From Prorocentrum cordatum (Eukaryota; Sar; Dinophyceae; Prorocentrales; Prorocentraceae), in assembly GCA_963575745.1 (NCBI GenBank), contig CAUYUJ010003681.1:245063-309062 (forward strand): a DNA stretch of 64,000 bases, written 5' to 3'. Shown here one piece after another: positions 16,876 through 64,000 of the stretch (positions are counted from its first letter, which is position 1; each line of letters starts with the position of its first letter). A model generated the notes under the pieces. The model had not been told where the DNA came from and did not search any database. It worked only from the letters and a program-made list of their open reading frames with translations. Both the position numbers and the translations under genes were made by a program.

Positions 16876-17216
16876 CCACCCCGCGACCCACCCCGCGACC
16901 CACCCCGCGACCCACCCGCGACCCAACCCACACCCCACCCGCGACCAAGCCCGCGAGCCACCCCGCCACCCACCCCGCGACCCACCCGCGGCCCACCCCG
17001 CGACCCATCCCGCGACCCACCCGCGATCCACCCCGCGACCCACCCGCGACCTTCCCGAGACACACCCGCGACCCAACAGCGACCCACCCACGACCGACCC
17101 GCGACCAAACCCGCGACCCACCCGCGACCTACCCTGGGGAGTCATGATGCTGTCTCTTGAAATTATTAGACACCTATCAGTCTTCGCTGTTAGGTAAAAT
17201 ATTACATACATAAGCC

Positions 17217-17520
17217 TCAGCTGTGGATTCCCCATAGTCACTGGCGGCGCTGGGGGCCTCAGCCTCAGCCTCAGTGGTGCGTTCCCCATAGTCACTGGCG
17301 GCGCTGGGGGTCTCAGCCTCAGCCTCAGTGGTGCATTCCCCATAGTCACTGGCGGCGCTGGGGGCCTCAGCCTCAGCCTCAGTGGTGCGTTCCCCATAGT
17401 TACTGGCGGCGCTGGGGGCCTCAGCCTCAGCCTCAGTGGTGCATTCCCCATAGTCACTGGCGGCGCTGGGGGCCTCAGCCTCAGCCTCAGTGGTGCGTTC
17501 CCTATAGTCACTGGCGGATC
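17217..17520 (-). repeat. 54-bp minisatellite, open on the minus strand
   Basis: Five and a half copies of a 54-bp unit. On the minus strand each copy encodes PVTMGNAPLRLRLRPPAP. Differences between copies are mostly silent in that frame (AAC/AAT, AGG/AGA, GTG/GTA); one changes Met to Ile. Period and substitution pattern are compatible with coding on the minus strand, but the frame runs into the satellite downstream. It may be an exon or simply a minisatellite. Confidence 0.6.
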
Positions 17521-19269: not shown

Positions 19270-19983
19270 ATTTAATAATTATTGTTGATCCCCCCCCACT
19301 TGTGCATACTGTTTTTTCTCAATCAAAGTGTGCCTCTCGACGCTCGCACCCTGTTTTTTTTGACAGGGAAAGTCTTCCTGCTCAAACTGGGCCCCTGGCC
19401 CCCCCGTTACAACAACAACGGCTCCCGCTTGAGACTTCCTTGCAATTTAGCCAGGACCCCCGCTCCCGCCCGAGACTTCCTCGCATTTTTTATTTAGGAA
19501 TCGCGCTCTCGCTTTGGACTTCCTTACAATTTATTCAGGAATCGCTCTCCCGGCGCTCTGGAGTCGCGCTCTCGCTGGAGACTTGCTTGCAACTTACTGA
19601 AGAATGGCCTTGCGTTGGAATTTCCTGCACTTTGCCCAAGCGCCGCGCTCCCGACACCCAGGCACCCAGGAGTCGCGCCCGTTGTGGCCCCATGTGCATG
19701 CCCTTCGTGGCCCCGCTGTCGCCATTTGTGTCCCCCTCACTGTCCTACGTGGCCCAGTTGCTACCCTCAGTGGCCCCATAGTTGCCTTCTGTGGCCCCGC
19801 ATTATCTGCACTTCGTGGCCCCCGCTCGTTCGCGCTCTTCGTGGCCCCATACGCATTCCCTTCGTGTCCCCGCTGTCGCCCTTCGTGGCCTACTTCGTGC
19901 CCTTCGTGGCCCTGCTGTCGTTCTCTCTCGCTCTCGCTTTCGCTCGTCGTCGCCGTCGTCGTCGTCGTCGCCGTCGTCTTCAA

Positions 19984-20028
<45 letters not shown>

Positions 20029-20530
20029 GGTCAGTCCCCTGCTCGTCCCTCTTGGGGTCGGGTCGATGGTCCGCGTCCGCCCCGCCGATCAGCGCTGCCG
20101 CTGGCCAGGCCGACGGTCCGCGGCCGCCCCGCCGCTTGCCGGGGCCCGGCCTGCAGGGAAGAAAGGTATACCCCCCAAAAGGCGTTCGATCGAAGACGAA
20201 GAGGGCGGGTATCGAGGGTTTGGGAAATACGCGTTATTGGACACTCGAGCATATAAGGGCGAACAGTCTTAAAATGGTTGTTGTTGCTGTTGCTGTTGCT
20301 GTTGCTGTTGTTGTTGTTGTTGTTGCTGTTGCTGTTGTTGTTTTTGTGTTTGTTGTAATTGATGTGTTGTTTGTTGTTGGTGTTGTTGTTGTTGTTGGTG
20401 TTGTTGTTGTTGTTGCTGCTGCTGCTGTTGTTGTTGTTGTTGTTGGTGGTGGTGGTGTTGTTGTTGTTGTTGGTGTTGTTGTTGTTGTTGTTGTTGTGGT
20501 TGTGGTTGTTGTTGTTGTTTGTTATCGTCG
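19270..20530. repeat. CGTGGCCCC-type repeat, then (GTC)n and (GTT)n tracts
   Basis: Degenerate repeats of CCCTTCGTGGCCCC at about 19590-19925, TCG/GTC triplets at about 19945-20030 and GTT/GCT triplets at about 20275-20525. No supportable gene. Confidence 0.75.
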
Positions 20531-21240
20531 TCCCACCCGCGACCTGCCCCGCGACCAGCCCGCGACCCACCCCGGGACCCACCCGCGACCCACCCGCGAC
20601 CCACCCCGCGACCCACCCGCGACCCACTCCGCGACCCACCCGCGACCCACCCGCGACCCACCCGCGACCCACCCGCGACCCACCCGCGACCCACCCCGAG
20701 ACCCCCCTGGCGATCCACCCGCGACCCACCAGCGACCCACCCGCGACCCACCCCGCGACCCACCCGCGACCCACCCGCGACCCACCGCGACCCACCCGCG
20801 ACCCACCCGCGACCCATCCGCGACCCACCCAATATTTTCGGCGCCTGCGGCGCGTTTCTTATGCATTCGTTCCAGGTTGTTCCAGGTGGAGAACCTGCGA
20901 CCTTCAATCAGAATGTTTGGCGCTTGCGGCGGGCTGTTTCTGAATTCCTTCCAGGTGGAGGTGGGGAGCCCGCGACCCACCCGCGACCCAAACTACGTTC
21001 ATTGAACAAGCCAAAACTTCGGCGCCTGCGGCGGATTTCTTTTGCATCGGCGACCCACGCGCGACCCACTGGCGACCCATCCCGAGACCCACCCGCGACC
21101 CACCCCGCGACCCACTCGCGAGCAACCCGCGACCCACCCGCGACCCACCGCGACCCACCTGCGACCCACCCAAAATTTTCGGTGCCTGCGGCGGGCTTCT
21201 TTTGCATTCGTTCCAGGCTTCTTGTGCATTCGTGAAGGCC
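20530..21240. repeat. GACCCACCC satellite, further arrays with recurring spacer
   Basis: Arrays at about 20530-20835, 20975-20995 and 21045-21175. The spacer contains TTTTCGGCGCCTGCGGCG and CATTCGTTCCAGG, repeated three times. Same satellite family as 15-19 kb. Confidence 0.8.
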
Positions 21241-28200: not shown

Positions 28201-28810
28201 ATGCCCCCCGCCGGGAAGGCCGCAGGCGTGAACGCGACGCCCCCTGGACCAGCTGCCCCCCCGGGCATCTTCAGCTTCCCCGGCACACCTGCGCCCGCGT
28301 CCACGGCAGCGCGGCCTCCCGCCGGGAAGGCCGCAGGCGTGAACGCGACGCCCCTTGGACCCCGCCCGGGCATCTTCGGCTCCCCCGGCACACCTGCGCC
28401 GCAGCCCCCCGCTGGGAAGGCCGCAGGCGTGAACGCGACGCCCCTCGGACCCCGCCCGGGCATCTTCGGCTCCCCTGGCACACCTGCGCCCGCGGCCACG
28501 GCATCGCAGCCCCCCGCTGGGAAGGCCGCAGGCGTGAACGCGACGCCCCTTGGACCCCGCCCGGGCATCTTCAGCTCCCCTGGCACACCTGCGCCGCAGC
28601 CCCCCGCTGGGAAGACCGCAGGCGTGAACGCGACGCCCCTTGGACCCCGCCCGGGCATCTTCGGTTCCCCCGGCACACCTGCGCCCGCGGCCACGGCATC
28701 GCAGCCCCCCGCTGGGAAGGCCGCAGGCGTGAACGCGACGCCCCTTGGACCCCGCCCGGGCATCTTCGGCTCCCCTGGCACACCTGCGCCCGCGGCCACG
28801 GCAGCGGCAG
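28201..28810 (+). CDS. Possible Pro/Gly/Ala-rich repeat protein segment (in-frame minisatellite)
   Basis: Six copies of a unit encoding PPAGKAAGVNATPLGPRP followed by GIFGSPGTPAP. Start-to-start distances are 111, 90, 105, 90 and 105 bp, all multiples of three. Two alternating lengths differ by an AATAS-type linker. Differences between copies are mostly silent in this plus-strand frame (CTC/CTT Leu, CCC/CCT Pro, GCC/GCT Ala, GGC/GGT Gly), which suggests past selection on the protein. The frame stays open to 29352 but loses repeat character after about 28810. The minus strand is also open, so the coding strand is inferred. True start and flanking exons are unknown; no domain beyond low-complexity repeats. 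Confidence 0.4.
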
Positions 28811-29734
28811 CGCCAGAGGCGGCGATGCAGTCGCCTGTTTCCGCCTTGACCGAGCCTGCGAAGCATTCGTGCATCCGGCGTTTCCAAGAAGACCACGGCG
28901 AACGTTTGCCCAGAGTTTCGGACTCCCCGTGTCCACCATCTCGGCCCTCGGAGCCCCCTTGGATCGACCCGGCTCGAAAGTCCTCTATGCAACAAAGTAT
29001 CGGGCCAACAGGTCAAAAGCCCCGACTCCACGATTTGTTTTTCGACGGCGCAGGTCTGGTCAGAATTTGTTTGCCTGCTATACGTTGTTTTGGGAGGGGA
29101 TCTTCGAGGGAGCGCGCGGGCGCGCGAGGATTGCACAGGAAAGTGATAGCGTGGTCCGTTTCAGAGAGCGCCCGTCTCATCTTACTGATCCTGCCATTGC
29201 TCCTACCCCTGCGCGTGCTCTTGTCCTCATGTTGCTCATCAAGCTACTCCTGCAAGTCCTGCTTCTCCTGGTCCTCCGCCTTCTCCTGGTCTTCCCGTTC
29301 CCGCTCCTGTGTCTGCTGCTCCGGGTCCCGCATTCGGATGTTCATGGAATAACTCAGGATCGTCATTGTTTATTTAGTTTACGTCCACTGCGCGAGTGCA
29401 GCGCAGCTAGTTTGGCACAGTCCGGCATTCTGTCGCACCAATGACACCCCGTCGTGTCTGCACAAGTGGGAAAGAGGAACAGGGGTGAGGAGGACAATGA
29501 GGCGCAGGTGGAAGACACGCGCATGGAGTAGGCACCGCCAGCGCAATGGGAACGTTTGCAGATGTGCATCGTCATGCTACGCTTGCATATCATGCTTGTG
29601 CCTGCCAGTCATGAGGTGGCAAGTATTTAATCGCTTCGCTCACTCCGCCAGCCCGTATTGTGCCATCGCAGGCGTTTGCCTGCGCGTTCGTGGCCTCCTG
29701 GAGGCCGTTCGTGGGCCTCTTGGAGGCTCCTTTT
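28811..29734. other. No further gene recognised
   Basis: Leu-rich frames in 29160-29330 arise from CTC/CTG-rich sequence. The stretch ends with one GGGCCTCTTGGAGG word immediately before the left end of the 12.6-kb transposon. Confidence 0.4.
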
Positions 29735-47774: not shown

Positions 47775-48892
47775 CTGCACGCGCCCGCAATCATTCCGGA
47801 ACGTGCCCGCGCAAGAGAAAGTGCCCGACCAGCACAACAGATCGTCCTGGGCGCACGCCGCAGATTATAGGAGTCTGCGGGCCGCGCAGGAGGGGTTGCG
47901 CGGATTGGTCGCGCCTCGCTGGGCGGCAGCGCGAGATGCCGGTCACGTCCGAGTGCGTCTATCGCAAAATTGAGCCAGCACCGCGCGCCGCTCTTCGAAG
48001 ATTGGCGGGTGGATGGTAAAGTGCTGACCAGGACCTCCAATCGGGCCCGTTCCGCCCATTCGCGCCGCTCCCCCTGCGAGGGCACGGGGCGCGCAAGCCA
48101 CTGCGCCTTGCGGGTGGCGAGGGCGGCCCTGGCCGCGGCATCGCCCTTTCGAATGCAGGCGCTATCGCTGTCAGGCGCTCTGGAGAACGGCTCCGCGCAT
48201 CCCCGCTACGCGCGGAAGAGGGCCCCGCGGTGCACAGGCGATCGAGCTCCGACAGGAGGGGTGCTGGCAGGACATGCAGGTCCGCGATGCACCTCAGCAG
48301 CGCCCCGACGAGATCCTGGCGGGTCTCGAACCCTTGCTCCGCCAGTACGCTGGCCGCACGCGCGACATCGGAGGCGCCCCCTGCGCGCCGGCGGGCGCGC
48401 GCGCGCACGCCGCGGGCGAGCCAGCCGAGCAACCTTTTATTCCGCGCTAGTGTAAACCGCGGGCGAGGCGAACCGATGCGACACTGCCTGTGCGGCGAAG
48501 ACGCCGACCCGCGCCCGCGCGCGCCGCTCGCCTAGAAAACGCTTCACGCCTCTTGATATGCCGGTCACCGCGTCGCGCACAGGGGGGCGGCCCCGGGGGC
48601 GGTCGGGCCAGCGCGGCCACCCGCGCGAGTCGACGGCACTCTTCGCTCGTGCCAGCCCGATCGCACCAGCAGGCGGTTTCGCCGCCGCGCCCCTGCAGCT
48701 GCGTGAGAGAACAGCAGCCATGCCGAACGCATAGAACCGCGGCCTCGGCCGCCGCCGCATCGCTGAAACGCCCTGGGAAGCTACGGCGAAAGTCGCGGGC
48801 GAGCTCCATCTTGCGCAATGCCGGCTAGCGTGGCAGCCGGTTCCGCTTGCGCGCGCGCGCGCCCCGCGGTGCGCGCACGCGGGGCAGTCTTA
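47775..48892 (-). pseudogene. Decayed retroelement coding sequence between RNase H and recombinase
   Basis: GC-rich minus-strand frames without stops but with Arg/Ala/Pro-rich translation. One protein-like stretch is AEQGFETRQDLVGALLRCIA near 48300. This interval should contain the remainder of RNase H and the recombinase N-terminus. No motif can be assigned, so treat as remnants. Confidence 0.4.
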
Positions 48893-49254
48893 CTAACATG
48901 CAGCACTCGCGGGCGGCGGCCCACAGCGGAAGGCCTCCGCGAGTTGTGCACGGACCCTCTTTCCCCCCAGGCGCGAGAGCAAATCCCGCTCCCCGCGGCT
49001 GGGAAGGTCGGCCAGGTTCCTTGCCGACTCCACGCGCTCTATCCACGCGTGGACCTGCCGCGGCGGCGTGGCCGCGCGCGCGTGTCTGGCGGCGCGCGGT
49101 TGCCGCGCTGCCTGGAGCGCCACTACCGCCGACCAGAATTGGTGCGCGAGAAAATTGTGGTCGCGTGACTTTGCGGCGCCCTTCCTGAAGTGCACTCAGC
49201 GACGCTGTTGTCTGAGAAGAAGACCACGCGGCGGCCGGCGAGCGCGCGTGCCCA
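48893..49254 (-). pseudogene. RNase H domain, C-terminal part of the retroelement polyprotein
   Basis: Begins at the element R junction with WARALAGRRVVFFSDNSVAE, where FFSDN is the third acidic residue of RNase H. After a frameshift it continues HFRKGAAKSRDHNFLAHQFW and WIERVESARNLADLPSRGE. The last motif (S/A-x-N-x-A-D-x-P-S-R-G) is the typical end of RNase H in dinoflagellate and DIRS-type retroelements. The frameshift lies at GAGTGCACTTC (about 49195-49205). The matching upstream half ends at 62743. Confidence 0.75.
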
Positions 49255-49289
49255 CCCTGAGGGTGGATCGGTCCAGTTTTCGGACCTAC
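49255..49289 (+). repeat. Element R left terminal inverted repeat
   Basis: CCCTGAGGGTGGATCGGTCC onward. Preceded by target CA. Confidence 0.85.
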
Positions 49290-49315
49290 GGAAAACAGGT
49301 CCAGTTCGCAAGATA

Positions 49316-49585
49316 ACATAAATCATGTTAAAAGCAAAAACGGACAGGTTTTATATTAAATTGCAAAACTGGACCTTTTTAATGCTAAAGCGTAAAACTT
49401 GAGTTTTTTATGTTAAATAGCAAAACTGGACCTTTTTTGTGTTAAAACGCAAAACTTGACTTTTTTGGGTTAAAGCGCAAAGCTGGACCTTTTTTTGGGT
49501 TAAAGCGCAAAGCTTGACCTTTTTTGGTTTAAACGCAAAGATAACTTTCTTTTTGCTACGACGCAAAACTTACCTTTATTTGTCA
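49316..49585. repeat. Element R left subterminal repeats
   Basis: About eight copies of a 28-30 bp unit, consensus near GTTAAAGCGCAAAACTGGAC followed by CTTTTTTT. AT-rich against the GC-rich surroundings. Candidate transposase-binding sites. Confidence 0.85.
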
Positions 49586-49679
49586 GCCGAAGCGCAACAG
49601 TGGACGCATGCTGTGTTTGCGCGTAAAAGACTGACGCAACTTAAGCCTCTCGTGCAAACTTGTCGACATATGTTGTTCA

Positions 49680-50190
49680 TCTGCTCCTCCTCCCTTTTCC
49701 TCCCTCCCCCCCGTCCTCCTCCTCCTTCCCTCCTCCTCCTCCTCCATTCATCCTCCTCCTTTTTCTTCTCATCTTCCCTCCTCCGTCTCCTCCTCCTCCT
49801 CTTCCTCCTCCTTCTCCTCCTCCTCCTCCTCCTTCCTCCTCCTCCTCCTCGTCCGCCTCTTCTTGTTCCTCATCCTCCTCCTCCTCCTTTTCCTCCTCCT
49901 CTTCCTCCTCTTCCTCCTCCTCCTCCTCCTCCTCTTCCTCCCTCTGCCTCTTCCTTCTCCTCCTCCTCCGCCTCCTCTCCGTTCCCCTTCTCCTGGGGGA
50001 TATTGCGACGACCTCTCAAGCGAAACCCAGCGAAGCGGCTAGCGAGTCAAGCTAATGTCCGCGGAGGCTGTCAATGCCACAGATTGCGACGACGTCTCAG
50101 GCGGAACTCACTCGAAACGGCCCTCCGCGGACCAGGGGGCGTTGCGGCTTCAGATTGCGACGATGTCTCCAGAGAAATCGCCAGGTGGCG
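49680..50190. repeat. (CCT)n tract and about 70-bp degenerate repeat
   Basis: CCT-rich to about 49990, then three copies of ATTGCGACGAC(C/G)TCTC-type sequence at about 50002, 50084 and 50154. Confidence 0.75.
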
Positions 50191-50302
50191 GTAACAGCGC
50201 CAGCTGACAGAATAGGAAAACTGAGAATCGAGGCGTATTATTTTTTTGCAGCTGAACCTGCAGAGCGGCGAGGTTGCTGCGGCGTCGGTCGAGGCCCAAA
50301 TC

Positions 50303-51002
50303 CTTACTTGCCATCGGCCTCTGCTGGGGCTTTGCCAGCCTTCGCGCGGGCCTCGTCGGCCTCTTCGTCTATGAGTTCGAAAATATCATTGTGTACTTGT
50401 CGCGCCCTGGGGCCCCAAGAGTATCTCGCAGAAGCGCTCCAGATGTCTGGGGGGAGGGACGTTTCAACGGATGGGTCGAGGAGCCCCCCCCCCCCCCCTC
50501 CCCCCCCCCCGCCACTCGCATTCTCACAAGTTCCGCCCCGCGCATTCCAACTTTCGTCTCAGCGAGTACGGGAGGGAAGAAGAGAGCGCGAGGGATGGGG
50601 CGGGAGGTCATCGAACCAAACGTTGAAACTACCCTTGCCTGGCTGGCTCTCGTTCGGGATCGGCGCATCGATCCCAAGCTGCCTGCAACCGCGCAGGATA
50701 GTTCCTCGTTGCTCGCACCCGAAAGCATTCACGTAGATAATCCCCAAGGATTCAGCCCACTCTCTCCTCTCAAGTTCTGCTGCTGTTTTCTGAGTCTTTC
50801 GGGGGTCGTCGGGCTCGGGGCCGGAGGGCGCGGGTTGGGAGTCGGGCTGGGCGTTAGGCGCCGTTCTTTCGGACCTCTCAGACGGGAAGAACGGGGCGAA
50901 CGGAGCGATCGGGGCTTCTTGTTCAGCTTGTTCGTTACCAGAGCCGTCGGTCTCTAATTCGTCGCGCATTGTTTTAGATTTTGAGTTGGCACCGTTGCTC
51001 AT
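50303..51002 (-). CDS. Gene Z: cargo protein of unknown function, two exons
   Basis: Exon 1 runs from ATG at 51002 (MSNGANSKSKTMRDELETDG) to about 50607. Exon 2 runs from about 50443 to the TAA at 50303. Joining at a shared GAC gives FNVWFDDIWSASARYSWGPR and then DIFELIDEEADEARAKAGK. The intron contains two long G runs; its borders are not GT-AG and are uncertain by a few bases. About 178 aa: a disordered, acidic, Pro-rich N-terminal half (SERSERTAPNAQPDSQPAPS) followed by a helical region with ELERREWAESLGIIYVNAFG. No known domain. It lies downstream of the transposase in element R, a position with no counterpart gene in element L. Confidence 0.6.
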
Positions 51003-51099
51003 TCGGCAAATCTCTGTTCGAACTTCGTTGGTCGGAGGTGTGATCAAACTGGGGTCTTTCGGGGATCTCTCGAGTCGACGGCCGCGCAATGGGACGGCC

Positions 51100-51380
51100 G
51101 CAGATCGGGCGGAGTTAGAACAGGAAGGGTGGCATAAGGATTTGAGAAGGGGAAGTGGGAAGTGGTAGTAGGAAGAAGAAGTAGGAAGGGGAGTAATTGA
51201 TGTGATAAGGACCCAGGCTCAGTATGACAGGGTGGTCAAGGGGGAGCGGTGAGATTTCTGTGAGAGTTCGGTGAGCTGTCGGTGAGATTTGCTTCTTTGT
51301 GCAGCGTGGAGGCCAGAGGGGGAAGGGGTCGGGTCGGTGGGGGGCAGTAGGAGGAGGAGAAGGCAAGAAGAGGAGGATGA
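51100..51380. other. No gene recognised
   Basis: Short stretch upstream of gene Z on the minus strand; no spliced-leader relict was found here. Confidence 0.4.
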
Positions 51381-52480
51381 CGGTCCTCCTCCTCCGCCCC
51401 CCCTCCTCCATCACCTCCTCCTTCTCCTCCTCCTCCTCCTCTACCTTCTCATCTTCCTCCTCCTCTTCCTCCTCCTGCTGCCCCTCCTCCTCATCTCCCC
51501 CCCCTCCCCGTCCTTCTCCTCCTCCTCCGCCTCCTCCTCCTCCTTCTCCTCCTCCCAATCAACATCATCATCAGCATCATCATCATCATCATCATCAGCA
51601 TCATCATCATCCCCCTCATCCTCCTCCTGCCCCTCATCTCCGCCTCCTCCTCCGCATCCTCCTCCTGCCCTTCCTCCTCCCCCCCCTCCTCCTACTCCTC
51701 CTCCTCCTCCTCCTCCTCCTGACCCTCGTCATCATCCTCCTTTTCCTCCTCCTCCTTCTCCTCCTCCTCCCCCCCCCCCCCCTGCTCCTCCCCTAGTATC
51801 TTCCTCCTGCCCCTCCTCCCTCGCCCCCCCCCCCCCCCCCCCCCACACCACCACCACCACCACCACCACCACCCCACCACCACCACCACCACCACCACCA
51901 CCACCACCACCACCACCACCACCACCACCACCACCACCACCACACCCCCCACCCACCCCCCACCCCCACCCTCCCCCTCCCCCTCCTCCTCCTCATCCCC
52001 CTCCCCCCCCTCCTCCTCCTCCTCCTCCTCCTCCTCCTCCTCCTCCTCCTCCTCCTCCTCCTCCTCCTCCTCCTCCTCCTCCCCTCCTCATCCTCCTCAT
52101 CCCCCTCCCCCCCCCCTCCTCCCCCTCCTCCTCCTCCTCCTCCTCCTCCTCCTCCTCCTCCTCCTCCTCCTCCCCTCCTCCTCCTCCTCCCCCTCCTCCT
52201 CCTCCTCCTCCTCCTCCTCCCCTTCCTCCTCCTCCCCCCCCCCCATCCTCCTCCTGCCTGCTCATCTCACTCTTCCTCCTCCTCCTCCTCCTCCTCCTCC
52301 TCCACTTCATCCCCCGCCGCCATCTCATCCTCCTCCTGTCCCTCGCCCTCATCCTCCTCGTGCTCCTCGTCCTCCTCCTCCTCCTCCTCCTCCTTCGCCT
52401 CCTTCTCCTTCTCCTCATCCTCCTCCTGCCCCTCATCCTCATCCTCCCCCTGCTCAGTTTCTCTTCTTCCCCTCATCATT
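51380..52480. repeat. 1.1-kb polypyrimidine block: (CCT)n, (CAT)n, (CCA)n
   Basis: CCT at 51390-51560, CAT at 51560-51615, CCT and C runs at 51620-51840, CCA at 51845-51940, then CCT to 52480. All frames are homopolymeric (poly-Pro, Ser, Leu, Trp or Gly). Confidence 0.92.
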
Positions 52481-52554
52481 TCCTCCACCGCTGCGGGCGC
52501 TGCCGCAAAGGGGAGGGCCACCCCTGACCTTTCAGAGGAGAAGGGTGGATGGAG

Positions 52555-52830
52555 GACGGGAGGAGGAGGAGGAGTGAGGAGGATTTGGAGGAGGAGGAGG
52601 AGGAGGAGAAGGAGAAGGAGGAGGAGGAAGAGGAGGAGGTTGAAGAGGAGAAGGTGGAGGAGGAGGTGGAGGAGGGGGCATGAGGGAGCGATGGGGGCAT
52701 GGTGAGGAGGTTGGAGAAGGATGAGCAGGCGGAGGAGGAGGAAGGAGGAGGAGGAGGAGGAGGAGGAGGCAGAGGAGGGAGGAGGAGGAGGAGGAGGAGG
52801 AGGAGGAGGAGGAGGAGGAGGGAAGTGACC
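52555..52830. repeat. (GGA)n polypurine block
   Basis: Complementary to the preceding CCT block and separated from it by about 75 bp of mixed sequence, so the pair can form a very long hairpin. Confidence 0.9.
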
Positions 52831-52862
52831 CACCCCTGACCTGGCCCAGCGAAAATGGCCTC

Positions 52863-52990
52863 CCGTTGGGGCCCTCAGGGGCTCTCATGAACTCCAGGGG
52901 GCTCTCATGAACTCCAGGGGCTCTCATGAACTGCAGGTGCTCCCAGGGGCTCTCATGAACTCCTCAGGGGGGCTCTCATGAACTCCAGGC
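52863..52990. repeat. GGGCTCTCATGAACTCCAGG tandem repeat
   Basis: About five copies of a 21-28 bp unit, variably spaced. The central TCATGA is a palindrome. Confidence 0.85.
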
Positions 52991-53219
52991 GGCATCCTCG
53001 GACCCCCCGAACAACTGGCCTATCAGGCAGTCATGGGGCCCGGTTCCTTGAACAACGTGACATGTCTTTATTGTTTTTAGTTGTTTTAGCACATGCCCTG
53101 CACGAGGAAACGCAGGCGTCAGCGTCAGCCGTCGAGGCTGCAAGCAACGCGACTGTATCACGAGTGGGCCAGAATCGAGTTCAGTTCCTTCTCCTCCTCC
53201 CCCCCACCTCATCCATTGA

Positions 53220-53350
53220 ATTTCCGCCTGCGTCGTTCAGTTGTTCCTCCTCCACCTCCTTCTCCCCCTCCCCCTCCTTCGCCCTCCTCCTCCTCCTCCT
53301 CCTCCTCCTCCTTCTCCTCCTCCTTCTCCTCCTCCTTTTTCCTTCTCCTC
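53220..53350. repeat. (CCT)n tract
   Basis: Immediately 3' of the element R transposase stop codon (minus strand). No coding sequence between 52990 and 53445 is recognised. Confidence 0.85.
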
Positions 53351-53445
53351 CTGTATCATCTCTGGGCTCGGCGTCGAACCCAGGGTTAAATCTGAAACCG
53401 TGCCCGCCCACACTCGTAGGCAGCATTGCCCATGAGCTTGAAACA

Positions 53446-55942
53446 TCAGCGCCCAGGCTGGACGCCGCTAGCGTTGCTCCCGTGAAAGAAGCGCTGTTGG
53501 CCGACCGCCATGTCGCCTTGCAAATCTATCCTCTCGAAGAGCCGTATCTCCCAGTGTGTTTTGTGAACGTTCGCAGCTGCAACCGCAGCGTGAAGATTTA
53601 AACTCTCGTGTAGGAACGTCGCATACTTCATGGGATTTCCATAACGTGGTATACGGCGTACCATGTGTACCCAGAAGTGATGTTTGTAAATGAATGGTAT
53701 ACCTGCAGACCTGATGAAATGCAAATGGCGCATACAATTGTCCATCAGCTTTCTGGCTGTATCGTGTGACGGCATTGCAGGCGCACCCTTTAGGTCCGCC
53801 ATAAACAATGTCAAAGACCTACATGCCCCTGTGAGATCAAACGTATGTGCAAATCTGTTCGAGAACTCCAAACATACATCGGGCGCCCATGGGAGCAACG
53901 CATTCGTCTCTGAGCCCATTGTAGACAGAGTTGGCGCCGCCGCATTTCCTATCACTCATTTCTGCCACCCACATATCCTATAGTTTAGCGGAACATCATT
54001 TCGATCGTACCAGTCGTCTAAATGCTCGGACAATCGTTCCAAGGTTACTTCAGTTATGACATGATGGCCCCCCCCCCCTAACGTTGAACGCATTCCCTTC
54101 GATAATCGCCCACATCGCACTGGAGATAATCCGCTGATGTACCCCCAAGTAGAGAATATGGATGACGTCGAGGACGAACGTGAGAGATGGCGTTGTTAGC
54201 GTGCGGGTGCTGAACAAAGGGTTGCGATATAGCATTGCATCGATGCATGCTTGCCCGTAACACCTCCCCCTCCAGAACGTAACTCTTGCAGGGAGTTGCA
54301 ACGCTGAAAACTCGCCGACATCTGGAAGAGCTTGGCTTGGCACGATGCGGTCGCCTGCCTCCAGCTGGCAACCAGTGGCCACAACTGGTCGAGACAGGGA
54401 ACGGCCCCTGACCCTGTCTAACCTGCGGTCCCAGAACAAGCCACCGTCTGAAATCACCTTGCGACGTCTTGCGTGCAAACTCGTTGGCATTAGCTACTGG
54501 GTGCATTCGACGAAGTGGGCGGGAAAACGGTGCCCCACTCAAAGCGTGAAACGCGCGACAAACACAACCCACGGGATGCAAACCGATCGCACCAGAAGCT
54601 TGGGACAGTGCGAACGAGTTTACACGCAGATGTCGCCTTCATCCGATCGCTCTCATTCCTGAGATGAACGGTAATCTCGCACAGCCTACAGTTGTCGTCG
54701 TATTCGTGCCCGCCCACGCACCCCCATGTATCGTGCCGCAGCGCGACGTCGTGGTATGTATGCATGTTATCAGAAAAAGTGTTGCACATCCAACATGGGT
54801 GGAAACCGCTTCCCAAACCTCTCAGGCCGAACGTTACACTTTGCTCCATAAGATCCCCCTTAATCCAGATGAGAGCGCCACGCCGAAGAGGTGAGCCAGC
54901 AAGACTAGAACGGTGGCTGCCTGTTGGCCAAGGGCCCCCAGTGTGGGTTTCACGTGGGCATTGGCCCGCCAGCAAAGACTCGAACCCCCACGCCAGGGAA
55001 AGCATGACTGGGTAAACGGTGCACCAGCCCCTGCACCCGCATTTGCAGAGCTCACTTTTTCTCTGGATTGCCAGGGTGCGCCGTTTGTTCTGGGGGAGGA
55101 GGTGGACGAAAAAAACCAGTCAAAGAGTCTGCTTTGCCCGTGCGGTCGCTTCGGGTGTAAATCTGATACCATCCACGTATATAGGAGGAAGGAAGCACAT
55201 ACAGGTCGCATATCTTTGCCCCCCCCCCCCTCCCCTTCCGAAGCGAGACGGGGGAGGGCGACTAAGAACACCGACTTGTAATTGCGTTCCCCCCCCCCAT
55301 TACAGTGAGCACAGCAACGGCTTCTGAGGAGCACGTCGGGCGACAGCGGGATGCCAGCTATAAAATCTTGGAATTGTGCGAACTCCTCATTTCTAGACAA
55401 GTTATCTTCACTCAACTCGGGGTCCTGATCGATCTGTTGTTCAATCGCTTCGAACACTGGGATCCTGGGGAGAAGCTCCGTTGCCCGACCAGCGTTTTTT
55501 CGCAGACTGGCACCTCAATGTAATAGTAATCTGAAGCTGGCCTCCGAGGTATTACCGTGTCGAGATGTTTCTGGAAATTTCCGCCCGTGTTCTTGGGGCC
55601 CATTGCGAGCCGTTGGACATCCCCTTGTGCGCCAGCCTGCTTTGCCCAGAACGCTACAATGCACAGATCCGTAGCCGTCATCGGCTTGGAGCCAGCGTAC
55701 ATTCCCAACAGGTAGCGAAACAGCTGATTCCCTGCATCTCGCTTTGCCTGCTCTCTGCGCTCATGCTCTTGCCTCTGTGCACCCCAATCCATATCAGAAA
55801 CAGCTGGGTCTACCTGTGCCAAGAGAGGGCTACTGATCGAGTAGCACTGAAATCTGGCTCCAGCGTGCTGCCCCGACGCTGGCGCACCGTGAGAAAGTGG
55901 GAGGTCCTGGATCCTGGGGTTCGTCCCTGGCGAAATCACCAT
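53446..55942 (-). pseudogene. Element R DDE-type transposase, frame-interrupted
   Basis: Starts at MVISPGTNPRIQDLPLSHG. In order: SKPMTATDLCIVAFWAKQAG, PVFEAIEQQIDQDPEL, IYVDGIRFT (candidate first Asp, near 55172), ELCKCGCRGWCTVYP (Cys cluster, near 55035), LIWIKGDL and FHPCWMC, LDVIHILYLGV (second Asp, near 54168), KHHFWVHMVRR, then YATFLHESLN (Glu, near 53607). Frame changes occur at a T6 run (55495-55500), an A7 run (55109-55115) and a C11 run (54068-54078); these are plus-strand letters. A TGA interrupts at 53956-53958. At least one intron probably lies around 54480-54600. Same superfamily as the element L transposase, but distant. The homopolymer breaks could be assembly errors; the TGA is harder to explain that way. 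Confidence 0.72.
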
Positions 55943-56039
55943 CGGCGTTAAACTTTGCGTTCGTTCTCAACAATTCCAGTCCCGTAACGTGCCGAACCGT
56001 TTTTTCTGGGAAACGACCAGACACCCTTGGGCAAACTCG

Positions 56040-56215
56040 GTTTTTCCGAATCTCATCGAAATCTCACCGGAATCTCACCTGAATCTCACCGGTTTCTCAT
56101 CGGTCAAATCTCATCGCTTGGAGGTGCACAAAACCTGTAAAATAATATGTTTTCGGCAAAATCTCACCGGAATCTCATCGGTTTCTCATCAAAATCTCAC
56201 CGCTCGAATTTTCGA
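56040..56215. repeat. ATCTCACCGGA 11-nt periodic repeat, copy 1
   Basis: Tandem AATCTCACCGG/TTTCTCATCGG words between the transposase and gene Y. The same word family recurs between genes Y and X (59035-59150). Confidence 0.85.
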
Positions 56216-56249
56216 GGATCGTTCGGTCTGGGCCGCTCGATTTCAAGAT

Positions 56250-56470
56250 TTTCCAGTTCCGAGGCTTCCAGGAAGCCTCGCGTCAGAAATTTTCAGGATT
56301 TTCTATTTCCGAGGCCTCCAGGGGCACTCAGTTCAAGAATTTCCACGTCTGAGGCCTCCAGAGGCCCTCAGAGGCATCCCGAGGCCTCCTGAGGAGACTT
56401 CGAGCCCCTCTGAGGCCCATCGATGCTTCCCGAAGCCCCCTGAGGGCACTTCGAAGCCCCCCGAACTTCG
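56250..56470. repeat. GAGGCCTCCAGG-type degenerate repeat
   Basis: Repeated GAGGCCTC(C/T)(A/T)GG words continuing from the preceding array. Confidence 0.7.
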
Positions 56471-56484
56471 AGGCCTCTGGAAGA

Positions 56485-56640
56485 AGGGAGGCGGCGGGGG
56501 AGGAGGAGGAGGAGGAGGAGGAGGAGGGGGAGGAGGAGGAGGAGGAGGAGGAGGAGGAGGATGAGGGGGGGAGGAGGAGGCAGGAGGGAGGAGGAGGAGG
56601 AGCAGGAGGAGGAGGAGGAGGACGAGCAGGAGGAGGAGGG
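56485..56640. repeat. (GGA)n tract
   Basis: Between the transposase start and gene Y stop; purine triplets only. Confidence 0.9.
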
Positions 56641-56710
56641 TATGATAAGGACGAGCGGAGGAGATATTAGTTGCGACTCTCAAGTCGCAGCAAGCTGCAA
56701 GCAGGCCAGC

Positions 56711-58956
56711 CTACTTCTTGGTCTTGCGCGCCTCGTGCATCTCTTGGATGCACGCCACCTCCTTCTGCAACTGGGTCACGACGGCCTTCAGCGCGTCGTG
56801 CACCCTGATCAGCACGCGCGTCCACTCGGTGCCTGCGATGCTCGCCTTCACGGTGCCGAAGTCCTTGACGATGAACGGGGTGACGTCATCCGTCCCACCA
56901 ACAGCCTCCTGCCTATCCATGGCGTCTGTCAAAGCCTTTGTGTTCGCATCATTGTTCGCCCAAGACCACTCTGCCTTCTCGCTGATCTGCTTCAGGAGCG
57001 TCTCGCCCCTCGACTTGTTCTGGCCGAATACGATGAGCAGGTTCTTGAGCTCGAGCTCTTTCTTCCTCACTAGCTTCATGCGCTGCTTCTTCTGCTCCTT
57101 GCTCTCGTGATCGGGCGGGTCCAGGGCCTTCTCTGGGTCTTCAGGCTGCGGTGGGGTGGGTGGGGCTGCAGCCGCCTCAGCAGCAGCCTCTGCACTCGCC
57201 TCGGCCTCGCGCGAGCGCCTCGAGCGCCTGGCGTCTTGACCGTCACTGCCAGCGCTGGATGGCTGAGGGCCCAGCGTACGCGTCTTGCCACGGTTGAGGC
57301 CGCCGATCGCATCCCTGAACTTCTCCATCAAGTCGCCCTGGTTACCCTTGTCATTTTCGAGCTCGCGCCACGCATTCTCTAACTTGTTCTTGAAGCCCTT
57401 CTTGCAGTAGAGGTACTCCAGGCGCTTGCCCCACGTGTTGCACTGCACCCAGGGCGCGCCCAACGTGGCACAGGCTAGAACGATGTTGAGCGCCGCGGTC
57501 GCGCCCGACTGCGTGATGCCGACGCCCGACTCCTTGCCACAAATGACCTCGAACGGCTCGTAGGTCCCCCACTCGAGGCGGGCCTCCGACTGCGTCCGAA
57601 TCTTCTGCCGTGCGAGGGGGCTGCGCAACATCCAACGGGCTCGATGCGATTAGGTGGCCATTGTGACAGGTCGAAGCCCCTGACCCCATGACCCCAGGAC
57701 CCCTCGAAGTCCAGGACCCCAGGATTCCGACCCCGAGTTGTCAATAAATCCGCCAGCCTAATCGCAACGATCGGGGTGGACATTGCGCGACCCCCAGGCC
57801 TCTCAACCATGTGTTCCTCCCACTTCTCGTCGACCCACTTCAGCCTCACGGCCTCCTTCTCCTCGTTGGACTTGGCCTTCTTGTACTTCGCTGCCCAGTC
57901 CTTGTTCGAAACGCACATGCGCTCGAACTTGCTGTGGATGGCCGTGCGCGTCTTTGCTTGTCGAGTCTTGCGCGCCTCGTTGAGCACGGGGTTGAAGCTG
58001 GTCTCATCGTCGTCGTCGAGATCCTTCTTCGACTGCTGCTGCTGGCCCTTGAAGAGCCTGTCGAGCTGCATGCTGAGGTGGTTGAGCGAGTCGGCGTTGG
58101 GGACGAAGCCTGGATCTGCAGGAAGCGTGCTCAGAACCCCACCAGCCTCATATGGCAGTGTCTCCGCGTTCTGCGTCTGCTGCCCCAGCTGCTTGATGCC
58201 GATCCGCTCGAGGCTCTTCGCGCTCATCTGCTCGATGCCGATGCTGTCGAGGGCGCCACTGCTCATCTCTGCAATGCCGATCCCCTGAGCATCCTTCTTG
58301 CTCATCTGCGAGATGCCAATCCCCTCAGTCTCCTTCTGGCCCATCTGCTCCACGCCGATGCTCGCCTCCGTCACAGAACCGCTGGCTGCCGCTGTCAGGC
58401 GATCCGCCTCACGACTGACGCTGGGCTGGCGGCTGCCACCGTGATCGCTCGCGTACTTGATGCAAGAGCCTGCGCTGGCATCACCGTCTGCTGAAGCTGC
58501 GATGGCTGAAGCTGTGGACTCGCGCTGCGCCAGACCGTCGTCGAGCACGGGCGCCTGCGGCGTCGGTGCGCTCGGTGCTGCCTGAGCTGCCTGAGGAGGA
58601 GGAGGAGGAGGAGGAGGAGGAGGAGGAGGAGGAGGAGGAGGAGTGAGGGAGTGGGGAGTGAGGAGGAGGAGGAGGAGGGAGGAGGAGGAGAGGGAGGAGG
58701 AGAGGAGAGGAGGGGGAGGAGGGGGAGGAGGGGTAGGAGGAGGCCTCTGGGGGAAGGAGGAGGAGGATGAGGAGGGGGAGGAGGGGGAGGAGGGGTAGGA
58801 GGAGGCCTCTGGCGCATCGCCCACCTCGGCCTTCTGGGTGGCCTCTGCGTCGGCCTGGCCGGCGCTCAGCTGCTGGGGCTCCTTGCGCGGGCGAGGATGG
58901 GGGAGGTAGACGAAAATATGGTAACTCAAATCCGCCAGATCAGATCCCCTTGACAA
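56711..58956 (-). CDS. Gene Y: cargo protein with 13-aa repeats, unknown function, multi-exon
   Basis: Two long open segments: 58956-about 57800 and about 57610-56711, joined by an intron whose exact borders are unresolved. A second intron, filled with GGA on the plus strand, probably lies at about 58595-58800. The N-terminal part is Gln/Ala/Pro-rich. At 58170-58365 are five 13-residue repeats, for example IGVEQMGQKETEG, IGISQMSKKDAQG and IGIAEMSSGALDS. Next comes a Lys/Glu-rich coiled region (AAKYKKAKSNEEKEAVRLKW). The second segment has a conserved-looking LEWGTYEPFEVICGKESGVG, an Arg-rich basic stretch (DARRSRRSREAEA), long helices, and the end EMHEARKTKK. The true first exon may be upstream of 58956. 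No domain name can be given. Confidence 0.6.
58595..58800. repeat. (GGA)n tract within gene Y, probably intronic
   Basis: GGA runs on the plus strand at 58595-58640 and 58660-58800. Reading through would give poly-Pro/Ser on the minus strand. Confidence 0.85.
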
Positions 58957-59034
58957 CTTTAGAATACTCCTCGATCTCTCTGCCCTCGATCCCTCATCAG
59001 ATGGGGGGGGGGCATGGTGTCAGATATGGCGCAC

Positions 59035-59150
59035 CTCAGCGGGGTCTCACCGAAACCGCACCGAAGTCCCACCAAAGTCTCACCGAAATTTCACCGAAAT
59101 CAAATCTCACCGAAACCTCACCGAAGTTTCACCGAAGTCTCACCGCTTGT
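59035..59150. repeat. TCTCACCGAAA 11-nt periodic repeat, copy 2
   Basis: TCTCACCGAAACC and TTTCACCGAAGT words in tandem, upstream of gene Y and downstream of gene X. Followed by CCT at about 59205-59300. Confidence 0.85.
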
Positions 59151-59442
59151 TGTGAGGGGTATAAGGATGTTACATGTGGCGTGCCTGAGGCGTAGGTCCT
59201 CCTTATCTTCCTCCTCCTCCTCCTCCTCCTCCTTGGATGTCAGATGTGGCGCACAGCCTCCTTATCCGTCTCCTCCTCCTCCTCCTCCTCCTCCTCCTAG
59301 TCGGCCCCAGCTGGGCCCATTTCCTTGGTTTACTGCCGGCCCGAGGGCCCCAGGTCCAGCCCGCGCCCACTTGTTTTTTCATGGTAGCGGAGCCCCTACT
59401 AAGCCAGCTTCGCTTTGAGCTGGCTTGAAAAGTGACCTGACC

Positions 59443-61299
59443 TCATGAGTCGGTCGCTGACTCATCAGAGTGCCCCGCAGCATCCCTCGCCATCTGCAGC
59501 AACATCTCGGCGCACTCCAGGTTGCTCTTCTTGGGCGGGGCGCCCATCTCGCTGGTGAAATCCGAGGCAGCCCGCTTCGCGTGGGTTATGTAGAGGCCCC
59601 CCTGCGACGCGGCGTTCTGGATGATCATGTTGGGCCTCGCTGGACTGGGCCCCTCCCGCTTGCGATCCTTCTTCTCCTTCTTGCCAGTGTTCCGCTTTGC
59701 CTCGTTATTTTCCGTCTCTTCCTGCTTCGCCTTCGGCGTGTTCTGCTCGGTGTTAGCGGCCGTCGCGGCTCGGGCTCCAAGGTCATGTCCATCGGCCTCA
59801 GTGGCGACCGTGTTCTTTTCGCCCGTGTCGTCAGCTACCTTCTCGAGCTTGGCGTCCTTGTCGTCATGCTAGTCGATCTTCGTCTTGTCCACCGCCTTTC
59901 GAGGACGTTTCTTCGCGGGCTCTTGCTTCTTCTCATCGGACTTCACGGTGTCCTCTTTGTCTGAGCCGCCGTCTCCAGTCTCGCCCTTGCCGTTCGCAAC
60001 CTCGAGCGCCAAGTTCATCTCCTTCAGCAGCTCCAACTCCGCGATGTTCGCCTGCTCCTTGGTCTTGACCTCCCCCGACGACATCGGCTTCACGACCCTC
60101 GCCTCCATACCAGCAACGGCCAAGTCCTCAGACCTGAACACCCCGCAGGTGACCTGAGTCTGCTGCTCCCCCCTGCCATCAGGATACTTCCTGAGCGCGC
60201 GGACGATGCGATGCTCACCTCGGTCCTCCCCGACCGCGATGAACACCTTTCCGCCGTCGGGCATGGGCATTGACGGCCGCTTCACGCGACCGCCGCCTTG
60301 AGCTTTGACAGCGCTCTCCCACACCTCAGGGTACTCCCGCGTGTCCCTGCCGCCATCCCATATAGCGCGCCGCCAGCCCGGCCTCGGAGTCTCCACGCTC
60401 TCTGGAGGGTCGCCCCTCGCTCTGCCCTTCATGATGCGAACCGCCTGCGTCCTGAACTCGTCGAGCTTGAAGATGTGCTGGGCTGTGACCTTCGACGCAG
60501 GCGCCTTCTCCTTGTTGTCGTGCGGATCCGCCCCGGCCGCCTCGAGATCATCGCCGCTCCCCGCGGTCTCCTCGTCCTGGCCTGCATCGTCGCCTTCGGC
60601 AGCACCTCCGAAGCCGTTCTCCTTCGGGGGTCCCCCACTCTTCCTTCTCCTCCTCCTCCTCCTCCTCCTCTTCCTCCTCCTTCTCCCCCTCCGCCTCCTC
60701 CTCCTCCTCCCCCCCCTCCTCTTCCCCTCCATCCTCATTATTCTTCTCCTCTTCCTCCTCCTCCTCGTCTGCCTCCCCATTGAAGTGGCCACGAACTCCT
60801 TCAGCGCATCTGCGAACCACTTCGGGATCTTCTTCCGGCGGAACTGCGATCCCGCGTGGCGGCCGAGCGTCCGCAGCTTGGACGCAATGTCAGCCACGCA
60901 CTGCTTGTGCACGGGCGACTTGGGGTCCTGAAGGAACTCCCAGATGGCATCGCCCTTCTTGCTCACAATCACGTTCCCGATCGCCGCCTCCGCCACCTTC
61001 TTGCCGATCGCGCAGCTGGCGATGTTCTGGCGGATGTCGCCGACCAGCTTGATGTTATTCAGGAAGCTATCCTTGTACTGGCTTTTCATGTGCTTCGAGA
61101 GGTCCGCACCGTAGACCAGCCAATCTACCTTGTCCATGTGGGCGGAGATCAGCTTCTGCACGAGCTCCACGTCGCCGCTGATCGACGACGCTGCCCCCTC
61201 GGCGTCGTCATCCTCAGCAGCCGCTGGCGCTGCTGGTGCAGCTGCAGGTGGAGCTGGCGCAGCCGTCGCTGCAGCAGCGGGGCGCTTCTTAGGTGCCAT
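59443..61299 (-). pseudogene. Gene X: cargo protein with one in-frame TAG, unknown function
   Basis: A single frame runs 619 codons from ATG at 61299 (MAPKKRPAAAATAAP) to TGA at 59443, broken only by TAG at codon 477 (59869-59871). Coding character continues past it (HDDKDAKLEKVADDTGEKN, then KKEKKDRKREGPSPARPN and MIIQNAASQGGLYITHAKRA), so I treat it as one gene. N-terminus Ala/Pro-rich; then a helical region ELVQKLISAHMDKVDWLVYG to KKIPKWFADALKEFVATS. A GGA-derived Arg-rich stretch at 60640-60785 may be an intron. A compact segment around PDGGKVFIAVGEDRGEHRIV follows, then a charged Lys-rich tail with KKRPRKAVDKTK, probably nuclear. No known family. First gene of element R. Confidence 0.62.
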
Positions 61300-61334
61300 G
61301 CGTCCTGAAAAGCGCGATGGCCCTGTCAAAGAAG

Positions 61335-61352
61335 CTCGAGACATGGGTACGG
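61335..61352 (-). other. Possible DinoSL relict upstream of gene X
   Basis: On the minus strand CCGTACCCATGTCTCGAG aligns with DinoSL at 15 of 18 positions if a 3-nt deletion is allowed. It ends 36 nt before the gene X ATG, the same spacing range as in element L. Weaker than the element L relicts. Confidence 0.4.
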
Positions 61353-61424
61353 ACGTGGAGGAGGGTGACGCTAACGCTCCATGATGCGCACCACCAGTGC
61401 TGCGATGCGCCCTCACCCCTGTGA

Positions 61425-61535
61425 TGACGTTTCGATGCATCGTCGATGCATCGAGGATGGCGCACATCGCGATGCATCGTCGATTGAAGACCAGGGTAAA
61501 CTTGCGATGCATCGCCGATGCTGCCACTCGCAATC
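61425..61535. repeat. GATGCATCG palindrome cluster upstream of gene X
   Basis: CGATGCATCGTCGATGCATCG plus further CGATGCATCG copies, about eight half-sites within 110 bp. Each half contains the palindrome CGATGCATCG. Might be a regulatory array or another repeat. Confidence 0.75.
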
Positions 61536-61549
61536 CGATATCCACGAGG

Positions 61550-62450
61550 TCACACCTGACCCCGCCCTTTAGTATTTCCCTCCACGCTGTCCTGGCTCTC
61601 GAGCTTGGGCTTCTTGCTCAGCGGCTCATCGTCGGAGCTGATCACGGAAGGGATCACCTCCTCGCGGGCGGCGGGGCGATTGCGCCGTCATCATCGTCCT
61701 CCTCCTCCTTCCTCCTCCTTCCTCCTCCTCCTCCTCCTGCTCCTCCTCCTCCTCCTCCCCCTCTCCCCAATCTATCCTCGGGCTTCGGGTGGCCGCGCAT
61801 GGCCAACTCGATCGAGTCCTCCACGCACTCGGGCTCGGGACTGCTGTCTGGCACATCAGGAACAGCGCGGCGTCGATCCTTACTCTCCTCGATCGTTCTC
61901 GGGCTCGCGGGCTGCGTCGGGGGGGCAGGATCGAACGGCGTGGCGTCGAAGGCCTCCACATCCGTTGGGGTCTGCCTGCCGCTGTTGGGTGCTGGGCTGC
62001 GCGTGCTTGCTGGGGTTCGCGCCTCGGCCGTCGGACACTCCTCGTCAAGCTTCTTGGGCCCGCTCGGCTGGGATGCTGACATCTGCATTCTGGCAGCGGA
62101 GCGTCTCGGGGCGAAAGACAAGCTTTGAATCGGCCGTAACTGGTGGATCTCGGGCACCACTGCCTCGAGCATAATGTTGCGGACAACGGGGCGACAACGA
62201 TGGGCCCGAACGGTTGAGAGAGAACAACATTCATCCGTGTTGGCGTCACATCTGACATACGCCCTCGGCACAACATCTGCTGACCACTGGAGTCTTCCTG
62301 GGTTTCGCGGTGGGGTTTGTGGTCGGGGTTCCGCCACACAGGGGGTATTTCTGCTAAATCTGATACAGCTTTGCTTTGATTGAAACGAATGCGCGCGGCG
62401 CTGAGGCAAGAACTTCATTTTTGGCGATCGTACCTCCTCCGTCCTCATGT
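61550..62450. other. Element R 5' region, no clear gene
   Basis: Contains a CCT tract (about 61695-61765). A minus-strand frame (about 62448-61800) has some protein-like composition (PNSGRQTPTDVEAFDATPFD) and might be an exon, but no start, partner or domain was identified. Confidence 0.35.
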
Positions 62451-62454
62451 TCTG

Positions 62455-62700
62455 GGCCCAACGAAACTAGATCTTGTTTTTATGATATGTTTAAATTGGC
62501 AGCTCTTTCATGTCAAAAGAAAACTAGATCTTTGTTATGTTAAAAGACAAGCTGGACCTATTTTTTATGTTATGAAGCAAATTGTTTTTTAATATTAAAA
62601 GAAAACTGGACCTTTTTTTTAGGTTAAACGAAAAACTGGATCTTTTCGTATGTTAAAAGAAAAACTGGACCTAAAAAAAAGGTCCAGTTTTGGAAATGCA
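62455..62700. repeat. Element R right subterminal repeats
   Basis: About seven copies of a unit close to GTTAAAAGAAAAACTGGACC followed by TTTTTT, in the same plus-strand orientation as the left-end array. One inverted copy next to the TIR forms AAAACTGGACC...GGTCCAGTTTT. Confidence 0.85.
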
Positions 62701-62707
62701 AAAACAA

Positions 62708-62742
62708 GTGGGTCCGGAAAGTGGACCCATCCACCCTCAGGG
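62708..62742 (-). repeat. Element R right terminal inverted repeat
   Basis: Read inward CCCTGAGGGTGGATGGGTCC. Outside it lies target CA (62743-62744). Confidence 0.85.
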
Positions 62743-64000
62743 CACGTGGACAGAGCCACGCACTGCGCCAGCATCTCGAGCGCCGCGATCTGCTGATCAT
62801 TGCGGGCGCGTAATCCGCTGCACCAATCGCGTAACGCCCGACGCGCGCGCGCCGCGGGCCGTCGCGCTGAGACCTGAGAAATTCTTCTGGCGGGGCCATG
62901 TCGGCCCACTCGAACGTGTCTTCTGTGAATAAAATTGCGGCGAGTCGCGCCGGGCTGCCGCGGGCGTCCGCCAGCGCGAGCACCGGCGGGCGCGCGTCGC
63001 GGCATCGCCAGGGCCGCGCGCGGGCGATGTCCCGTGCCAGTACGTCTCGCCACCAGCGCAGCGCGTCGCTCGCGCGTCCCGCGAGGCGGGGCAGGGAACC
63101 GTATGCCTGGTCGAAGAGCGGTCGCACCATCGAGCGCCCGGCGCGCTCGAACACGTGGCAGCATGCCCACGACAGGCGACCTGCCATCTTCGACGCCTCG
63201 CCGGCCGTGGGCGCGCCTGACCTCAAGGCGCCGTCGATGACGGCAATCCACTGCTTTACTTTATCGTCGTCGGGCTTGACGCGGAAGCCCGATGCCGACG
63301 ACCGGACGCGCAGCCCCAGGATCACGATCGACGGGCACCACGCCATGTTTCGGTCCTGCATGGCGCTGGGCCCGAGGAGAGCGCGCACCAGCCTCGCAAA
63401 GCACTTGTCGGCGTGCTCCGCGAGGCCCTTCCTTTCAACCGAGAAGAAGTCGTCAACGTAGCGCAACGCCGGGAGCCACAGCAGCTTGCGCGCCGCGGCC
63501 GCCAGGAAGGCGCCCGCGCGCTCCCATCCGTGCACGCAGGCCAGGCCCCCGAAAGGCAGCGTGATGTGCTGGGCGGCCATGACACGCCCGCGCAGGCGGT
63601 AGGTTACCCATGCGACCGCGCGGTGCCTAGGCAGGACCGGCACGCGCCTGAAGGCGGAGCCCACGTCCGCTCTCCAAAATTCGAGCTCAATCGAAATCTG
63701 CGCGCGCGCACGGGATTGACGCGCCACTGCAGGCTGGATTGCGCGCGGCGCACCTCCTCGTGAAAGGCACTTGCCAGTGCAACCAACTGGTCTATCGTGT
63801 CGTGGCGCCATTTTTCCTCCACGCTGGTAGCGCCGTTGACCCTCGCGCGAGAATAGTCGTCGACGCATCGCACCTGCGCTGCGGCGCGCGGGCGCGGCCG
63901 ACGCCAGGCCGCGCGGCGCGCAAGCCTTTGGGGAGCCGTCTGGCTTGTTCCCCTGCACCACTGAGAAGCGAGGTGCCAAAATCTCATCGTGCAGTGCCAA
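62743..64000 (-). pseudogene. Reverse transcriptase and N-terminal RNase H of the DIRS-like element
   Basis: Partial, running off the window. Motifs in order: CVDDYSRARVNGATSVEEKW (fingers region, near 63850, in another frame), EFWRADVGSAFRRVPVLPRH (first catalytic Asp), ITLPFGGLACVHGW, LRYVDDFFSVER (YVDD active site, near 63455), KMAGRLSWACCHVFERAGRS (thumb/connection), then RNase H with LALADARG (first Asp) and QQIAALEMLAQCVALST (Glu). Frameshifts are needed near 63700 and near 62830, so it is inactive. The final residues join directly to WARALAGRRVVFFSDN at 49254 when element R is removed. YVDD with the LPFG motif and the partner recombinase supports DIRS-like rather than LTR or LINE origin. 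Confidence 0.78.

Follow-up and report, generated by a model that had tools for sequence, protein, structure and literature searches.

RAG1 is the enzyme that assembles the antibody genes of vertebrates. Its transposon relatives are grouped in the CMCT clade, which comprises EnSpm/CACTA, Mirage, Chapaev, Transib, Plavaka, ESTA and Lanisha together with RAG1, and whose members give target-site duplications of 2-5 bp and in most cases have the termini 5'-CA..TG-3' (the part of PMC12730594 that treats the clade). The element described here lies in the window, a 64,000-nucleotide (nt) stretch of contig C3681 of the dinoflagellate Prorocentrum cordatum. The window very probably carries a cut-and-paste transposon of 13,488 bp that entered one copy of a high-copy retroelement, duplicated a CA dinucleotide and holds three genes, A, B and C, the last of which would encode a RAG1-like transposase with the DDE (Asp-Asp-Glu) and other motifs of the CMCT clade. 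The genome searches covered 4,128,499,153 bases in 21,875 contigs. The genome is given as 4.15 Gbp with 59.7% GC and its assembly as a MaSuRCA hybrid in the assembly account of PMC10666404, which is taken here as the likely source of the sequence.

The transposon spans positions 49,255-62,742. When the two 3-kb end regions were compared, the best ungapped 35-base pairing (31/35) fell exactly at 49,255 and 62,742, and the runner-up reached 26/35. The left terminal inverted repeat (49,255-49,289, plus strand) starts CCCTGAGGGTGG and the right one (62,708-62,742, minus strand) is placed by its pairing with the left. The dinucleotide CA stands directly outside each end, at 49,253-49,254 and 62,743-62,744. 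The repeat and its CA flanks are as the initial annotation described them; the span given there, 49,253-62,744, is longer than the element itself by the CA on either side.

The retroelement is found without the insertion at many places in the genome. Searched with a sequence spanning the left border, the genome yielded 91 candidates, of which 40 were scored; 37 of these match the left flank only, at 100%, the remaining three being the window and two other element ends. Across the right border 40 of 92 candidates were scored and 37 match the right flank only. Comparison of the two tables of scored places gave 24 places where the left and the right flank, each matched at 100%, adjoin and share a single CA; the two flank matches overlap there by three bases, which are the CA and a chance C. 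The 14 loci that were fetched represent 13 distinct sites, L008 and L013 being the same site. In all five fetched left-flank loci (L004-L008) the alignment continues across the joined flanks for about 1,600 bp, with 96.0-97.4% identity. The exact 48-nt junction with one CA is present in 12 of the 14 fetched loci, L012 and L014 deviating, and the predicted continuous peptide in 13 of 14, or 12 of the 13 sites; in L012 the junction, with one CA, is shorter and the predicted frame is absent. The initial annotation had proposed that removal of the element and one CA copy fuses two minus-strand reading frames, and had looked to uninterrupted copies of the retroelement for confirmation; such copies exist and the fused peptide is found in them. 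Both borders are fixed to the base. As an event, the insertion, a CA-duplicating entry into a high-copy retroelement, is nothing out of the ordinary, and its documentation here is very good.

The host open frame lies on the minus strand, with the part upstream of the insertion at 62,743-63,260 (the reverse transcriptase motif YVDD, then an RNase H-like part) and the part downstream, from FFSDN onward, at 48,825-49,254. That this gene is interrupted, as first annotated, is confirmed; its naming as RNase H depends on motifs recognised by eye, all after YVDD, namely an Asp strand, a Glu in a helix before the insertion, FFSDN and NLADLPSR. The host frame gave no meaningful match in Pfam or PDB. 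This is unsurprising, because the reverse transcriptase of Symbiodinium DIRS elements is reported to align poorly with Pfam (PMC5890265, in its remarks on these elements).

When the genome was searched for the first 100 bases of the element, three places matched, all of them ends of full-length copies. The copy on C15009 is 94.6% identical to that of the window and is flanked by a CG duplication. The copy on C2336 is 95.4% identical, a figure raised by the stretch 53,205-58,620, and is flanked by TG. The end pair thus recurs in other surroundings with duplications of its own, as the initial annotation had expected of a true insertion. The left end is the same in C15009; in C2336 two of its first nine bases are changed, and this border therefore rests on the alignment. 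Between the window and C2336 there are no differences over 53,205-58,620 (5.4 kb), against 4-11% in most other 500-base bins, one bin in a simple-repeat tract aligning badly. Simple-repeat tracts lie at both edges of the identical stretch, which could have arisen by gene conversion or by repeated use of one sequence in the assembly. The stretch matters because the transposase of the window copy lies within it.

A distant relative on C16653 (98,065-114,780; 16,716 bp) has ends CCCAGAGGGT with 28 of 35 bases paired, and its genes, A (363 amino acids, aa), B (580 aa) and C (745 aa), follow one another as they do in the window element. This conservation shows three same-strand genes in the window copy, all on the minus strand. 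Gene A (59,872-61,617) is an open frame of 582 aa, 33% identical to its C16653 counterpart over 175 aa (E 1.7e-16). Gene B (56,714-59,019) consists of two overlapping frames, 57,478-59,019 and 56,714-57,649, with a conserved part at 57,329-57,643, and matches gene B of C16653 with 48% over 112 aa (E 3e-25). Gene C (53,467-55,732) is a broken transposase whose pieces lie in several frames and are 35-52% identical to an intact 745-aa relative in tblastn; the four main pieces show 47-56% identity to gene C of C16653. It carries stops besides the frame breaks, so that the window copy cannot supply its own transposase and presumably either relies on other copies now or is dead. The family alignment and tblastn place the motifs of gene C, all on the minus strand, as follows: the first catalytic Asp in YVDGIRF (55,159-55,179), the cysteine motif CKCGCRGWCT (55,018-55,047), the second catalytic Asp in IKGDLMEQ (54,841-54,864), the C(2)C motif HPCWMC (54,784-54,801), the H(3)H motif HHFWVHM (53,662-53,682) and the catalytic Glu in HESLN (53,596-53,610).

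The element further contains subterminal repeats of 28-30 bp of the AAAACTGGACCTTTTTT type (repeat family D15, plus strand), eight units at 49,344-49,580 and three at 62,528-62,647, as well as long TCC/GGA simple-repeat tracts (51,384-52,821). A minus-strand frame of 270 aa (61,657-62,466) is open along its full length in two of the three copies, its coding status being uncertain. Ten stop-to-stop open reading frames gave only weak Pfam matches to unrelated families (best E 0.0012), no match was obtained with two of the three minus-strand frames taken whole, and neither gene A nor gene B is matched by a curated Pfam model. Among proteins, gene A found no match at E <= 0.001 in 7,989 candidates scored from 5.8 billion, and the broken transposase frame none among 901 candidates. 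The initial annotation spoke of a very large DNA transposon with cargo. The transposon is real; the cargo is a conserved three-gene set of its own lineage, and the searches made found no host-type passenger gene inside the element.

The element of C16653 belongs to a second family, for which four copies with both ends readable have the duplications AA, TT, TG and TT. Together the two families show an exact 2-bp duplication in 7/7 copies with both ends read, none reaching 3 bp; the chance probability of seven such two-base matches is about 6e-9 at 60% GC. This count leaves out C13789, whose left end reads N, C2385, where the contig ends, and C2747, an 81% relative whose far end was not found, the best candidates having 12 mismatches. 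Repeats of the 28-30-bp type known from family 1 were not seen by eye in 400 bases at each family 2 end. In the 16.7-kb relative a frame of 350 aa lies downstream of the transposase (L058:3330-4379); it matches no Pfam or PDB sequence, nor, by tblastn, anything in the window at E <= 1e-4, and is possibly a true passenger.

The transposase family is large and unnamed, and its predicted shape is nearest to that of RAG1. For the open piece 54,493-55,119 a first look at the genome gave 3,749 candidates, and there are at least 150 matches; those listed, which include the window and its two sister copies, correspond to 148 places (two pairs of rows overlap), are 33-100% identical and all have E 1.8e-25 or better. 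Six loci (L030-L034 and L038) have an intact frame of 745 aa with about 50% identity to the window piece; they differ pairwise at 4-47 of 2,235 nt and by 3-40 aa changes. The near identity of these intact copies points to a recent spread of the lineage in the P. cordatum genome. A search with the 745-aa protein gave 33 metagenome relatives, all listed without a Pfam domain (7,993 candidates scored). In the resulting alignment of 37 rows, which retains P0004 and P0025 (both left out of the alignment behind the structure model), the first Asp is present in 34/34, the second in 35/36 and the Glu in 14/18 of the rows with a letter at the position. Between the second Asp and the Glu, C295 and C298 of the C(2)C motif are each found in 35/36 rows, and H605 and H609 of the H(3-4)H motif in 16/22 and 16/21. 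The putative catalytic residues are D171, D275 and E629 in P0003 and D174, D279 and E698 in P0034. The motif set of the CMCT clade and a RAG1-like fold are supported at the level of motifs and of the structure model. That so abundant a family, with intact and nearly identical members and a RAG1-like transposase, has no Pfam entry is surprising.

If the gene set is read in this way, transposase C would pair the CCCTGAGGG ends, with the subterminal repeats assisting and perhaps A and/or B acting as DNA-binding or regulatory partners. It would then excise the element and join it to the target strands at points separated by 2 bp; the 2-bp duplication would arise when this staggered joint is repaired.

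Several results weigh against this reading. The functions proposed for A and B are guesses. The Glu and H(3)H columns of the alignment are less complete than those of Asp and Cys, and several metagenomic rows end in apparently unrelated sequence. No Pfam transposase family was matched at E <= 1 by eight proteins or by the 32 alignment members, and no PDB chain sequence, RAG1 included, was matched significantly; the transposase profile had four PDB matches at E <= 10, three of them to a kinase and one to a designed protein. The structure model was made for P0003, which is 33% identical to the 209-aa piece of the window, and the Foldseek matches to RAG1 have low TM-scores (0.37-0.40 by query) and a root-mean-square deviation of 12-14 A over the whole length. 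For the window copy compared with that on C15009, the ratio of nonsynonymous to synonymous substitution (dN/dS) ranges from 0.5 to 1.3 across the tested open frames, as expected for copies drifting after insertion. Most nucleotide differences among the six intact relatives alter the protein, which is unusual for copies that selection keeps working; with the dN/dS values, this means that no clear selection is seen. The ends, CCCTGAGGG / CCCAGAGGG in the two families, have the form CCC..GGG and not 5'-CA..TG-3'.

The nearest alternative, a CACTA/EnSpm transposon of the usual kind with a transposase that has simply diverged, is unlikely. It would account for the short duplication, the subterminal repeats of family 1 and the accessory protein genes beside the transposase, and the C(2)C and H(3-4)H motifs are common to EnSpm (PMC12730594, in its description of that group). 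However, the ends do not begin with CAC, the duplication is 2 bp rather than 3 in all seven copies, and subterminal repeats were lacking to the eye at the family 2 ends. Nor was any Pfam transposase model, of which PF02992 is the CACTA one, matched by the 32 aligned members at E <= 1. Another superfamily with 2-bp duplications, for example ISL2EU in the PHIS group, would fit the length of the duplication, PHIS relatives being described with 0, 2 or 3 bp (PMC12730594, where that group is treated), and is scarcely probable.

The borders could also be read as splice sites of a giant introner, the insertion being spliced out of the RNA. The left end (49,255-49,268) resembles a donor, GG/GTGGAT, and the right end (62,731-62,742) an acceptor, CCACCCTCAG/GG; in P. 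cordatum, acceptors normally read AGG (79.7%, as given in the splice-site account of PMC10666404). Splicing from GG/GTGGAT to CTCAG/GG would leave 12 nt in frame, that is 10 nt and the 2-bp duplication. The genome search with the left end, in which very common words were skipped, nevertheless gave ends of full-length copies in 3/3 cases and no short ones. With no short copies carrying the element ends among these three candidates, the introner idea is unsupported and very improbable. An assembly join in place of a real event is hardly credible. The 5.4-kb stretch identical to C2336 while the rest differs would be in keeping with it, as would the hybrid nature of the likely source assembly (PMC10666404), but the 2-bp duplication is perfect, the element's own ends lie exactly at the borders, and the same ends occur in two other copies with other flanks and other duplications. 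A false join inside the element would leave the borders untouched.

If the transposon does belong to the RAG1 group, a lineage of that group in an alga-type genome would widen the tree around the vertebrate immune recombinase and show the reach of the RAG1 fold when the cuts are spaced differently, by 2 bp. The family would be a source for part of the repeat mass in giant algal genomes, without a curated Pfam match, and it is directly testable because intact, nearly identical copies exist.

Elsewhere in the window there are three further repeat regions. At 15,363-21,171 several separate arrays of an 11-12-bp unit of the CCCACCCGCGA type, each up to about 600 bp, lie within 6 kb. A 195-bp unit is present three times at 28,203-28,811, with sub-units of 90/105 bp and 93-97% matches, inside long open frames on both strands. 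A 53-bp unit occurs in about nine copies at 1,273-1,764.

Compared with the described members of the CMCT clade, the new lineage has the DDE, C(2)C and H(3-4)H motif set in its putative transposases, a 2-bp duplication within the 2-5 bp of the clade and a predicted fold of the RAG1/Transib type. It differs in its CCCWGAGGGT ends, its A-B-C set of three genes and the lack of a match at the level of Pfam; the CKCGCRGWCT motif may be a further difference. RAG and Transib duplicate 5 bp, a length that is not found in any of the seven copies; from RAG1/ProtoRAG (BbRAGL) the lineage is further separated by an identity of 11%; the Pfam comparison of genes A and B identified no RAG2-like gene. Plants have CACTA (En/Spm) elements with a transposase, an accessory gene and subterminal repeats, which resemble family 1, but the termini and the length of the duplication differ, neither family has CAC..GTG ends with a 3-bp duplication, and the new lineage does not match the Pfam transposase model. 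Plavaka A of fungi shares the 2-bp duplication and belongs to the same clade, but has TGT..ACA ends (PMC12730594, in what it states of Plavaka A), and no Plavaka was among the Pfam hits of the new lineage. The lineage is apparently undescribed: no description of it turned up in the open-access literature that was searched, and families of this kind may be catalogued differently in Repbase. A tentative proposal, which we consider possible without favouring it, is that these elements form a superfamily of their own among the RAG1-related transposons, common in genomes of the dinoflagellate type and marked by CCCWGAGGGT termini, 2-bp duplications and the A-B-C set. It would be as distinct from EnSpm as Transib is, and would be among the large families that helped to build the 4.1-Gb genome. 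Because the motifs, the predicted fold and the duplication agree with the CMCT clade, while the termini do not and no Pfam model matches, the element is placed as a divergent lineage in or beside CMCT and is not called EnSpm, Transib or RAG.

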